Source of the DNA: Butyrivibrio sp.
Lineage (GTDB): Bacteria > Bacillota > Clostridia > Lachnospirales > Lachnospiraceae
Length of the DNA: 64,000 bases
Direction: 5' to 3'
Assembly (NCBI GenBank): GCA_015056655.1
Contig: SVFV01000012.1
Span: forward strand, 1 to 64,000
The position numbers and the translations under genes were made by a program. Positions within the stretch are counted from its first letter, which is position 1, and each line of letters starts with the position of its first letter. This document shows, piece by piece, positions 11,474 to 18,212 of this stretch. The notes under the pieces were generated by a model. It saw nothing but the letters and a program-made list of their open reading frames with translations, had not been told where the DNA came from and did no database searches.

Positions 11474-12322
11474 TTAAACTGCCTCTTCTTTGATATCCAT
11501 AAGACCATATTCAAGTAGAATTTCTTCAAGTCGCTCCTGGGTCATGGGAGTAGGTATTGTAAACATCGTATTTTCGTCAATTGCTTTTGCAAGATTTCTA
11601 TACTCATCTGCCTGAGGTGAATTATCATCATATTCGATAACGGTTTTTCTGTTTATCTCAGCTCTCTGCACCACATTATTTCTGGGAACGAAGTAGATAA
11701 GCTGTGTACCGAGTTCCTTGGCAAATGCTGTAAGAAGTTCCTCTTCTCTGTCAACATTTCTGCTGTTACAAATGATTCCTCCCAGTCTTACTCCGCTCTT
11801 TTTTGCATATTTTGCAATACCCTTTGATATATTATTGGCTGCATATAATGCCATCATCTCACCGGATGCAACTATGTAGATTTCCTGTGCTTTTCCTTCT
11901 CTCATGGGCATTGCAAATCCTCCACATACAACGTCTCCAAGAACATCATAGAATACATAATCCAAATCGTCTGTATATGCACCTTCCTGTTCCAAAAGTC
12001 CTATGGAAGTGATAATTCCTCTTCCTGCGCATCCAACTCCGGGCTCTGGTCCACCGGATTCTACACATCGGATTCCGTTGAAACCTGTCTTCAAAATACT
12101 GTCAAGCTCTATGTCATCACCTTCTTCTCTTAAGGTATCAAGTACTGTTTTCTGAGCAAGTGTTCCTAAAAGAAGTCTGGTGGAATCTGCTTTGGGATCA
12201 CATCCTACAACCATGATTTTTTTGCCAAGTTCCGAAAGACCTGCTGTAAGATTCTGCGTTGTCGTTGACTTTCCGATTCCTCCTTTTCCGTAAATCGCAA
12301 TTTGCCTGATGTTTTCGTTCAT
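11474..12322 (-). CDS. NifH-like nitrogenase reductase (Fe protein), Mar-type candidate
   Basis: A 282-residue homodimeric ATPase and electron donor for the NifDK-like component. The P-loop [10 protein letters not shown] spans residues 11-20, and the bridging [4Fe-4S] ligands are Cys97 (GVGCAGRG) and Cys132 ([10 protein letters not shown]), at the same numbering as classical NifH. Arg100, the ADP-ribosylation site in true NifH, is also present. It is the last gene of the unit SBP-D-K-X-B-H. No nifE, nifN or nifV is in the window, so this is probably a group IV nitrogenase-like reductase and not an N2-fixing one. MarH of the methylthio-alkane reductase is the best functional analogue; family is certain, substrate system is inferred. 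Confidence 0.93.
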
Positions 12323-12375
12323 TTTTTCACTCCTCCTGTTGGTCGTTAAACTATTTCTTGCCTCGCATGAATTAC

Positions 12376-13251
12376 TTATCCATGTGAAAATGTATTCTCA
12401 AGTTTTATCTCTCTAAGGTAAATCTGTTTCGAAATATCCCTTCCACCGGGTACTCCAATGGCATCAGCTCTGCATCTTTGACAATGTCTGAATACCTTAA
12501 TATATTTTTCAGCCTCCGCTCTTACTTCATATAACATCTGACAATCAGGTTCTGTGCACCATGCCAGCTTATGCTGAGGAATAAGCGGTATAAGGTTGTA
12601 TATTGTTGCTCCAAGTCCTGCAACAGTTTTCGCTATTTCAGGAACATGATCCTTATTTATTTCCGGAATAAGCACTGTATTTACCTTAACTGTTACCCCA
12701 GCTGCAGCTACTTTTTCTATGCCCTTAAGCTGATTTTCTATCAGTATTTCTGCTGCTTCTCTTCCGGAAATCCATTCACCGTGCCAGATAATATGGTCAT
12801 TTATCTTACTCTGAATGTCCGGATCAACAGCGTTCACAGTAACTGTTAAAGTATCAACTCCGGCATCTATAAGCTCATCTGCCTTTTCATACAGAAGCAG
12901 GCCGTTCGTACTCATGCACTTTATCATCTTGGGAAACTTGTCTTTTATTTTTCTGAAAGTCTCAAGTGCATAAGGTGTTGCCAATGTATCTCCTGGTCCT
13001 GCAACCCCTACAACCGAGAGTTCAGGCATCATCTCTATAGAACGTTCAACAATTCCCAATGCCTCATCCGGTGTGATGATATCTGATGCTACCCCGGGAC
13101 GATTTTCTGTGTCGTTTAGTGAAATTCTGCAAAAGTTGCAGCTAATGTTACAACCGGGGCTTACCGGAAGATGAATTCGTCCGCTGTTATTCTTTTGTCC
13201 TACCGCAAAACACGGATGATTTTTCTGTAATTCTTCAAATGATACTGCCAA
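12376..13251 (-). CDS. NifB-like radical SAM cofactor maturase
   Basis: A 291-residue radical SAM protein with SAM-cluster cysteines at 34, 38 and 41 (GCNISCNFC). The C-terminal [11 protein letters not shown] holds the extra Cys ligands typical of NifB, which fuses two [4Fe-4S] clusters and inserts carbide to give the [8Fe-9S-C] core. There is no fused NifX domain; a separate NifX-like gene precedes it. The only in-frame start before the SAM motif is TTG at 13251, directly after the stop of that gene, with AAGG eight bases upstream. Its presence implies that the partner D/K proteins carry a nitrogenase-type cofactor, which chlorophyllide or F430 reductases do not need. Confidence 0.92.
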
Positions 13252-16516: not shown

Positions 16517-16532
16517 GATAGTCTCCTCTTAT

Positions 16533-18212
16533 TTATTTTGCTTTCTTAAAGTCAGCCAGGTATTGGTTATACAAAAACATAGGGCTGAATTCATATTCCA
16601 CTTTGTCACTTAATGCAAAGGTATGATATGGATAATATAAAGCTGCTCCCGGCTGCTCATCTGCCAGAATACCTGATGCTTCCTGAAGCAGTTTCGCACG
16701 TTTTTCAATATCAAACTCATGATTTGATTCATAAATCAGATCATCAAACTTTTCGCTCTTAAACTCAAACCAGTTTGATCCACCTGGAATATCGTTTGTA
16801 GAAACGAACATCGGCAAAATTACTCCTACAGGATCAGGATAATCAGATCCCCAGCCAGTAAGCAAAATATCGTAATCTCTTGTCTCACTTCCGCCATATC
16901 TAAGTGTTGAATGCTCTGAACCGCTTATTCCTACAAGTTCTACATTTATTCCAATCTCAGCAAGATTCTGCTGAACTATAAGTGCTACAGATTCATCTGT
17001 TGTTTTTGCTGCGGGATATTTAAGAGTTACACTCACGCCCGGCTCTGATGATGATTTTTCCAGGTATTCCTTAGCCTTATCCACATCTCTTTCATAGGTT
17101 TCAAGATTTTCAAACCATTCTGTCCAATACTCTCTGCCTACTGTTACTGTCTCAGGACCGTATGCAAGTCCGGTTCCAACCTCTGCATATTTTCCATAGA
17201 ACAAACTCTCTACTATTGCTTTTCTGTCAACTGCATATGAGATAGCCTTTCTGAAATTCACATCATCAAAAGGTGCTTTAGAACAATTAAATGAAAGATA
17301 CTGTTCAGAGAAAGGATAAATTGTGTGAAGTGAAATCCCTTCTGTTTTTGCAAGTTCCTCTGCATCATCAGGTGTAAGTGAAGCCACATAGTCTACTTCG
17401 CCCTGCTGGATTGCAAGCTTTGATACAGAAGTATCAGCGATATATTTAAGGACTACTTTCTTGAAATCCACCTGTTTGTTTTCCTTGTTCCAATAATTTT
17501 GGTTCTCTACAAGAACAATTTCCTGTCCCGGTTCCCAGCTATCAAGAACGTATGGACCTGAACCTACGATTCCGCCCTCTGCAGTTCCGAAATTCTCAGA
17601 ATGCTCATTAAAATATTTCTCGCTTACTACAAGGCTTGCAGTTGTTGCAAGTGATTCATGCCATGTAACATCAGGCTCAGCAAGCTTTACTGTAACTTCA
17701 AGATCACCAGTCTTTTCGATGCTTACAACATTTTCAAACATCCAGGAAAGCTCACCGCCGTTCTCAGGATTTCTTTGTCTCTCCAGGGAGAAAACAACAT
17801 CATCCGCTGTAAGTGGATCTCCTGTTGAAAAATAAACTCCATCCTTTATGTGGTAAACGTAGGTTGTTTCATCTGGTTGGTCGAAGGATTCCACAAGATT
17901 AGGCTGTATCTGGCTGTCCTTATCGTAGTAGAATAAGCCTTCTGAAATTCCGTTAAGCACTGCATCTACCCAGAATGCATATGCATGAATGATGTCGATA
18001 TTATTTATCTCATCAGTTATTGCGATTGTCAGAGTATCTTCTTCAGAAATATCAACCGCTTCGCTCTGTGCTGCATCTTCACTAATTTCTGTACTTTCTC
18101 CATCACCGGTCTTTGCTGATGCGGTAGCATTTCCACTGCCACATCCTGCCACCGTCAGGAGCAAAGCTCCCGAAAGTAATAGTGCTACTAGTTTGTTTGT
18201 TCTTTTTTTCAT
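16533..18212 (-). CDS. family-5 (peptide/nickel type) solute-binding lipoprotein, copy 2
   Basis: A 559-residue lipoprotein: signal peptide with lipobox VAGC (cysteine about residue 24), then an SBP-bac-5 domain (TADDVVFSLERQRNPENGG, GIVGSGPYVLDSWEPGQEIV, GWGSDYPDPVGVILPMF). It is the first gene of the nitrogenase-like unit and has a near-identical domain pattern to the copy at 18370-20043. Both presumably feed the OppBCDF-type transporter at 20368-23953. Being co-transcribed with the D/K/X/B/H genes, it probably binds their substrate or its precursor; a metal-chelate role, as for NikA, cannot be excluded. Confidence 0.9.
   Translation of the reverse strand: MKKRTNKLVALLLSGALLLTVAGCGSGNATASAKTGDGESTEISEDAAQSEAVDISEEDTLTIAITDEINNIDIIHAYAFWVDAVLNGISEGLFYYDKDSQIQPNLVESFDQPDETTYVYHIKDGVYFSTGDPLTADDVVFSLERQRNPENGGELSWMFENVVSIEKTGDLEVTVKLAEPDVTWHESLATTASLVVSEKYFNEHSENFGTAEGGIVGSGPYVLDSWEPGQEIVLVENQNYWNKENKQVDFKKVVLKYIADTSVSKLAIQQGEVDYVASLTPDDAEELAKTEGISLHTIYPFSEQYLSFNCSKAPFDDVNFRKAISYAVDRKAIVESLFYGKYAEVGTGLAYGPETVTVGREYWTEWFENLETYERDVDKAKEYLEKSSSEPGVSVTLKYPAAKTTDESVALIVQQNLAEIGINVELVGISGSEHSTLRYGGSETRDYDILLTGWGSDYPDPVGVILPMFVSTNDIPGGSNWFEFKSEKFDDLIYESNHEFDIEKRAKLLQEASGILADEQPGAALYYPYHTFALSDKVEYEFSPMFLYNQYLADFKKAK

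Follow-up and report, generated by a model that had tools for sequence, protein, structure and literature searches.

The first 64,000 nucleotides of contig SVFV01000012.1 from a Butyrivibrio sp. genome (GCA_015056655.1), referred to here as the window, carry a compact nitrogenase-like unit on the minus strand whose genes we designate D, K, X, B and H. We favor, with some reserve, a reading in which this unit encodes an assimilatory, ATP-dependent carbon-sulfur (C-S) reductase of the methylthio-alkane reductase (Mar) lineage, placed on a sister branch to Mar itself. Judged by its sequences, the system probably works like Mar, and it probably cleaves C-S bonds in a way that feeds methionine and cysteine synthesis.

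Gene content, phylogeny and cluster site

All five genes are intact open reading frames (ORFs) separated by intergenic gaps of -23 to 53 bases. D (14996-16516; 506 aa; PF00148, 1e-89) is the catalytic alpha subunit, MarD-like in sequence, fold and residues, and K (13657-15018; 453 aa; PF00148, 1e-68) is the MarK-like beta subunit, with P-cluster cysteines C20, C44 and C104. X (13252-13641; 129 aa; PF02579, 3e-17) is a NifX-type cofactor-binding protein. The same unit holds a NifB-type maturase, namely B (12376-13251; 291 aa), a radical S-adenosylmethionine (SAM) protein with a NifB core, and an Fe protein, the reductase H (11474-12322; 282 aa), which exceeds the NCBIfam nifH cut-off (467.9 against 394.35 bits). 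B matches the nifB model over residues 6-287 (3.9e-83) and scores 279.6 bits, under the cut-off of 343.65, probably because the protein stops before the C-terminal part of the model; its nearest solved structures are of NifB (7jma, 7bi7, 7jmb). MarD and MarK are the best sequence matches of D and K, and MarD is the closest fold to D in a structure comparison that included DPOR and Cfb, two systems set against the window proteins by family score and fold only. A PF00148 profile search of the host genome (4.0 Mb, 99.87% complete), made for nifE and nifN, returned only the D and K of the window. Hence the preliminary description of this region, which had proposed a Mar-type enzyme with D-, K-, X-, B- and H-like genes in one unit and neither nifE nor nifN, is borne out by the intact, co-oriented ORFs and their family and fold matches. 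Since H clears the nifH equivalog cut-off, yet the genome lacks NifEN and D is no nitrogenase, nifH surveys of guts may score such genes as nitrogen fixers and so inflate their counts.

The association of the five genes recurs well beyond the window. At 76 loci of relatives with a window-type D, K was found at 68, H at 54, B at 53 and X at 50; all of these figures, like the neighbor counts given below, are lower bounds because the simple gene finder overlooks some K and B copies, as seen in L077 and L064. The D-K-X-B-H set exceeds chance co-occurrence. Two loci, L115 (4929-5813) and L121 (5251-6129), carry H-like proteins that are 49-51% identical to the window H, compared with at least 80% at the other listed loci, and their reductase may differ from that of the remaining clade.

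Relatives were obtained from one scan of a named genome collection, from which the best 80 of at least 540 confirmed relatives were taken (D 57-84% identical). These belong to Clostridia of rumen, gut, termite and digester origin (habitats partly from record titles), among them Ruminococcus albus, Eubacterium oxidoreducens, Ruminiclostridium sufflavum, Herbinix and Acetobacterium tundrae, and to Treponema, an Endomicrobium and a Coriobacteriales bacterium. A search of plasmids for MarD-like proteins gave two records. In a careful tree of 46 rows, 31 window-clade rows were split from three Mar rows (Rhodospirillum rubrum, Pectinatus and Ruminococcus) at 100/100 and in all 200 bootstrap trees, and the Mar rows grouped at 100/100. 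One NifD-like row in this tree was shortened and drew an unrealistic branch length; two other NifD-type rows took its place in a quick tree of 58 rows, which recovered the window clade at 99, inclusive of four basal rows with Gln74 and with its 30-row crown at 100, and grouped the five Mar rows at 100. The window D lies outside the clade of R. rubrum MarD in both trees, and in the quick tree it groups with MarD at a distance from the two NifD-type rows. The proposed check by D/K phylogeny thus places D with the MarD lineage and not inside a nitrogen-fixing clade, within a comparison built on D and two NifD-type rows, and the idea of a separate branch stands. By these trees the window system is a separate sister branch to Mar in fermenting anaerobes, although the order in which these two and further types branched off is not securely established.

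The residues around the active-site cluster refine this picture. According to PMC12552129, the [Fe8S9C] cluster of MarD is anchored by Cys270 and His429, the adjacent Arg428 is a proposed hallmark, and the surroundings comprise Cys73, Gln74, His194, Trp195, Phe199 and His375; the chain numbering of the structure used here agrees with the residues of that paper. Our D alignment comprised 93 rows after removal of the short fragments L077 and L048. The window itself, 75 of the 80 scan loci (L048, L056, L062, L102 and L113 contributed none) and L033, L035, L036 and L037 make up its 80 window-clade rows, among which 16 pairs share at least 98% identity; a 90% cut leaves 41 rows. In MarD numbering, the three P-cluster cysteines, Cys73, Trp195, Phe199, Cys270, His375 and Arg428 are kept in 80/80 rows and His429 in 79/80. 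Correspondingly, the window D has P-cluster cysteines C53, C78 and C146, R416, and C258 and H417 as predicted ligands of [Fe8S9C], while the K cysteines C20, C44 and C104 recur in 87/87 K rows of all types, so that the conserved cluster cysteines noted at the outset are confirmed. The single row lacking His429, that of L103 (2598-4064), has Pro there.

Two positions behave differently. Gln74 is kept in 2/80 window-clade rows and is otherwise M, T or V; His194 is kept in none (V 41, M 31, I 8). After the 90% redundancy cut, Gln74 remains in one of the 41 rows and His194 in none, with Arg428 and His429 in 41/41. Both residues are present in 5/5 Mar-clade rows, namely R. rubrum and four from the phylum of the host genome, whereas the window D has M61 and V182 at these positions. 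The active site of the window clade suggests, from alignment, that its substrate is a sulfur compound other than that of Mar.

Set against Mar of R. rubrum (MarBHDK; PDB 9fmg, 9d9u; PMC12552129), the window system shares the B-H-D-K gene set, six P-cluster cysteines, the cluster-anchoring Cys and His, the Arg-His loop, Trp195, Phe199 and His375, and a sulfur-assimilation setting. It differs in a D that is about 40% identical, in its separate clade, in the replacements at Gln74 and His194, in an X gene within the unit, in MetY1- and SsuABC-type neighbors, in an Opp/M28 module in two species, and in coexisting with Mar in two genomes. According to PMC12552129, no nitrogenase-like enzyme other than Mar has been described with both large clusters. 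Divergent DK homologs are also known, by description, from anaerobes as group IV, such as NflDK2-4 of Heliophilum fasciatum (PMC9147875) and the IV-A genes near type I MGCs (methyltransferase clusters), which lie by sulfur or methionine genes (PMC10418091). No function was assigned to the window clade in the literature searched, from which most subscription journals fell outside coverage. Only a small number of nitrogenase relatives have an assigned function, and a sister clade that combines the same cluster ligands with a changed pocket and its own neighbors would make the basis of substrate choice on [Fe8S9C] directly testable by residue swaps.

Sulfur genes in the neighborhood and in the genome

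Downstream of the unit and on the same strand lie MetY1 (8660-9958), a divergent O-acetylhomoserine sulfhydrylase; SsuC- and SsuB-type (NitT/TauT-like) permease and ATPase genes (6842-8633), for which no NCBIfam model reached its cut-off; a DUF4418 gene, an FtsX-type permease and a LolD-type ATPase (4474-6829); and an SsuA/NMT1-type binding protein (3431-4477) that falls below its family cut-off. A YezD-like small protein of 52 aa (20060-20218, minus strand; DUF2292, 1.1e-16) lies on the other side. The flanking metY, YezD and sulfonate-type transporter genes of the preliminary description are therefore present, the transporter within 3431-8633. MetY1 scores 452.4 bits, below the cut-off of 495.1, as does its counterpart in L052 (457.6 bits). 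Given that a second MetY of the window (35688-36971) reaches 621.5 bits, MetY1 appears to be a specialized paralog.

We compared the 50 of 80 clade loci that span at least 15 kb with 21 control stretches of the same genomes; the controls are contig starts and not random places, and 40 had been fetched, of which 19 were dropped as shorter than 15 kb. MetY1-type genes occurred in 31/50 clade loci against 0/21 controls, MccB-type in 34/50 against 0/21, CysK-type in 34/50 against 2/21, SsuC-type in 18/50 against 1/21 and MetI-type in 14/50 against 1/21; for FtsX-type genes the figures were 10/50 and 1/21 (p 0.10). In 43/50 clade loci, as opposed to 2/21 controls, one or more of MetY, MccB and CysK occurred. 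The counts for MccB, CysK, MetQ and MetI are favored in clade loci because their reference proteins were drawn from there, with loose identity limits. The labels MccB and CysK, which we take partly from Bacillus naming, rest on one representative each: 563.1 bits for MccB, under the model cut-off of 594, and 345.5 for CysK, above 344.15. This association nonetheless upholds the earlier suggestion of a link to sulfur assimilation.

The sulfur metabolism of the genomes themselves was surveyed in the host genome and the genomes of 50 of the 80 loci (51 in all). In the host genome nothing matched the sulfite/nitrite reductase domain NIR_SIR, which was not found in 33/51 clade genomes and was matched in 11/14 control genomes. 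Sulfite released as in Isr could thus not be used further here unless the organism has some unrelated enzyme for it. Xsc was not found over its cut-off in any of the 51 genomes, a result to be read beside 0/14 control genomes over it, which leaves the search without a positive control. MtnA was over cut-off in the host genome and in 13/51 in all, leaving 38/51 without it, and PF02574 was matched in 49/51 genomes, in the host genome by an 848-codon frame that is MetH-like by length. The MtnA and PF02574 searches speak to presence, not use.

Proposed chemistry and competing explanations

We envisage that H, with hydrolysis of ATP, would deliver electrons first to a P-cluster shared between the two subunits D and K, and from there to an [Fe8S9C] cluster on Cys258 and His417 of D. 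B would build this cluster and X would carry it, without NifEN. The cluster would then reductively cleave a small imported thioether at its C-S bond, and the freed thiol or sulfide, as opposed to sulfite, would pass to the MetY1-type sulfhydrylase to yield methionine or homocysteine; in many relatives the sulfur may go onward to cysteine via MccB-like and CysK-like enzymes. Such a scheme would mean that anaerobes have a route for organic sulfur that has gone unrecognised.

Several observations weigh against this reading. In the careful tree the branch of the 31 window rows alone received 92/97. Trp195, the sole residue near enough to hydrogen-bond a belt sulfide in MarD (PMC12552129), is retained throughout the window clade. 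NIR_SIR is present in 18/51 clade genomes, and a sulfite reductase of another, unrelated kind might conceivably be encoded in the host genome. In 7/50 clade loci neither MetY, MccB nor CysK was seen, and the neighboring transporters vary between SsuABC-, MetNIQ- and Opp-types, which may reflect a shared sulfur regulon and not one substrate. In R. rubrum, the conversion of methylthioadenosine to (2-methylthio)ethanol needs MtnA; given MtnA in the host genome, such a route may operate here, and given the MetH-sized PF02574 protein, methanethiol is not required for methionine.

These points bear on the alternatives. The unit could simply be Mar, acting on the volatile compounds that Mar itself uses (dimethyl sulfide, ethyl methyl sulfide and methylthio-ethanol), with the differences in branch and residues the product of neutral drift. 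The invariance of Arg428, Cys73, Trp195, Phe199 and His375 in 80/80 rows, the MtnA of the host genome and the MetY-type neighbor would all agree with this; however, Mar orthologs of the same phylum keep Gln74 and His194 (5/5 Mar-clade rows, R. rubrum included), both types share one cluster in two genomes, which is hard to square with redundancy, and 38/51 clade genomes are without MtnA over cut-off, so that we consider it possible but unlikely. Far less probable is a sulfonate reductase resembling IsrBHDK of Rhodobacter capsulatus and fed by the SsuABC-type transporter and a taurine-type aminotransferase, even though Isr has in common with the window system nitrogenase-like HDK, a radical SAM protein, an SsuABC transporter and a place in sulfur assimilation. 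The window does hold SsuABC-type genes and an aminotransferase closest to taurine:2-oxoglutarate aminotransferase, and according to PMC11423573 Isr partners with SsuCAB in Rhodobacter capsulatus and yields sulfite. That same paper describes an IsrD that keeps one of the three D cysteines and lacks an equivalent of Cys275, and an IsrB that is not NifB-like, whereas the window D keeps all four cysteines and its B is NifB-like; on this published description the two are set apart. The host genome is moreover without NIR_SIR and without Xsc over the cut-off that no control reached, and the relatives of the aminotransferase sit, by eye, with other omega-amino-acid-type genes. An enzyme of Isr type proper was rejected on the ligand pattern and the lack of NIR_SIR. 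The earlier proposal of Mar-like chemistry on a possibly different thioether or sulfonate substrate consequently keeps its first part, through the Mar-type match and the sulfur link, while its sulfonate option is weakened.

That the unit reduces a non-sulfur substrate and lies by chance in sulfur-regulated neighborhoods also finds little credence with us: its neighbors are mixed, but the excess of MetY, MccB and CysK in clade loci over controls and the kinship to a C-S reductase both speak against it. Least credible, indeed scarcely so, is a divergent nitrogenase fixing N2. The window system has the fold, Fe protein, P-cluster ligands and NifB core of the Mo-nitrogenase NifHDKENB, H lies above the nifH equivalog cut-off, D and K belong to PF00148, and FeMoco assembly without NifEN is reported for Roseiflexus (PMC11573651). 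Against this, the positions of NifD Val70, Gln191 and His195 are occupied by C/M, W and F, the second cofactor ligand is located on the MarD loop, NifE and NifN are missing from the host genome, and D groups with MarD, far from the two NifD-type rows. An ordinary nitrogenase was rejected on residues, fold, tree and the lack of NifEN.

Within the favored reading of a C-S reductase on a sister branch to Mar, it is tempting to speculate further, if only tentatively, that the window type forms, next to Mar and Isr, a third functional class. It would be a reductive dealkylase that works anaerobically and at the expense of ATP on larger thioethers derived from amino acids or peptides (S-alkyl-cysteine-type), the oxygen-free counterpart of flavin-based S-alkyl-cysteine salvage. 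Some anaerobes would then run two or three DK pairs of different thioether specificity off one shared reductase and maturase, a notion suggested by clusters in Pectinatus and Ruminococcus. Pectinatus cerevisiiphilus DSM 20467 (L166, 4488-18078) has three DK pairs within about 13.6 kb, one of window type (D and K 62% identical), one of Mar type (KHW and IRHNG motifs) and one of a third type, accompanied by SsuABC-, MccB- and CysK-type genes, and offers a natural set for a comparison of specificity. The 13.9 kb read from Ruminococcus sp. UBA7013 contains a single run of genes in which a window-type pair is joined by a Mar-type pair, with a single B and a single H. The retention of both types in one genome argues against redundancy.

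Accessory genes, transcript layout and further DK types

Upstream of D lies a transport module whose contribution appears local. A family-5 solute-binding protein (SBP5a, 16533-18212) ends 16 bases before D and has a counterpart preceding D in L047; upstream of it, in the same direction, follow a second family-5 protein (SBP5b, 18370-20043), the YezD-like gene and then OppF, OppD, OppC and OppB (20368-23953), an accessory dipeptide/nickel-type ATP-binding cassette (ABC) transporter. The binding protein described as the first gene does directly precede D, and is first only if the genes upstream are left out of account. Beyond the Opp genes is a rare accessory M28-like protein (23943-25808, likewise minus strand), with a weak match to a solved aminopeptidase and a sub-threshold PA domain; its true start is probably 32 codons inside the ORF, and an AlphaFold prediction from three sequences gave a pLDDT of 38.4. 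At E 1e-30 it was found in 3/51 clade genomes, the host included, and in 1/99 relatives, this being the host itself. SBP5-type genes lie near D in 1/76 clade loci, and in genome G097, one of the three, the M28-like gene sits beside Opp genes with no nitrogenase-like gene within the 15 kb read. The module was accordingly rejected as a core part, and the dedicated substrate import and M28-like protein of the preliminary description, while present in the window, are not general to the system. In L047 (Eubacterium sp. RGIG6042, D 84%) the M28-like, Opp and both SBP5 genes flank the system in a different order, and conservation despite this change makes a real link possible in that small subclade.

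The class III aminotransferase (9979-11316, minus strand) has taurine:2-oxoglutarate aminotransferase 6jix as its best solved match (9.2e-103). No counterpart was found near D in 76 clade loci. Its two nearest relatives (50-53%) among those found in 61 genomes adjoin iron-type alcohol dehydrogenase genes, and the surroundings of one of the two look, on inspection by eye, like a cluster for pyrimidine catabolism. As these contexts fit other omega-amino acids as well, the gene was discarded as proof of taurine use; neither the aminotransferase nor the M28/Opp module defines the substrate.

From 25808 down to 3431 the minus-strand order is M28-like, OppB, OppC, OppD, OppF, YezD-like, SBP5b, SBP5a, D, K, X, B, H, aminotransferase, MetY1, SsuC, SsuB, DUF4418, FtsX, LolD and SsuA-like, with gaps under 30 bases except at OppF-YezD (149), SBP5b-SBP5a (157), B-H (53) and H-aminotransferase (157). 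A pattern scan placed a terminator-like hairpin of 12 pairs with a T-rich tail directly after H (11437-11466, minus strand). It has the most pairs of the 15 found in 3000-22900, where shuffles gave an expectation of 13.4, and is to be read as a pattern only; should it be genuine, transcription of the nitrogenase-like genes would stop after H, and a second, separate transcript may carry metY and the Ssu-type genes. A promoter scan found 34 candidates against 47.9 expected, and Rfam at gathering scores, applied to the window and 14 of the 80 clade loci, found nothing near D; a single T-box, in L069, lies some 6 kb upstream of the D gene there.

The number of nitrogenase-like proteins per genome varies widely. 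Exactly two PF00148 matches occur in 13/51 genomes, the host included, and the maximum elsewhere is 20; G069, G101 and G070, with 20, 19 and 16 matches, would provide each cell with numerous nitrogenase-like pairs. A genome of the same genus encodes at L027 (G030:C13:130013-131524) a D-like protein with divergent cofactor-site residues in a frame listed as 909 codons, perhaps fused or tandem, with two stop codons counted in the second match. Further D types at L042, L043, L044 and L045 have Gly, Asp or Asn at MarD position 73 and some have Ala or Gly at 429; they adjoin ABC transporter, MccB- or CysK-like genes and perhaps represent other C-S chemistries. Pectinatus cerevisiiphilus is a beer spoiler, and a link between its three-pair cluster and the sulfur smells of spoiled beer would be a guess. 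Finally, at a distance from the unit, an ORF of the window (51834-52844), presumably an Rpn-like nuclease, precedes a shorter stretch (53408-53827) that nearly repeats its C-terminal part.

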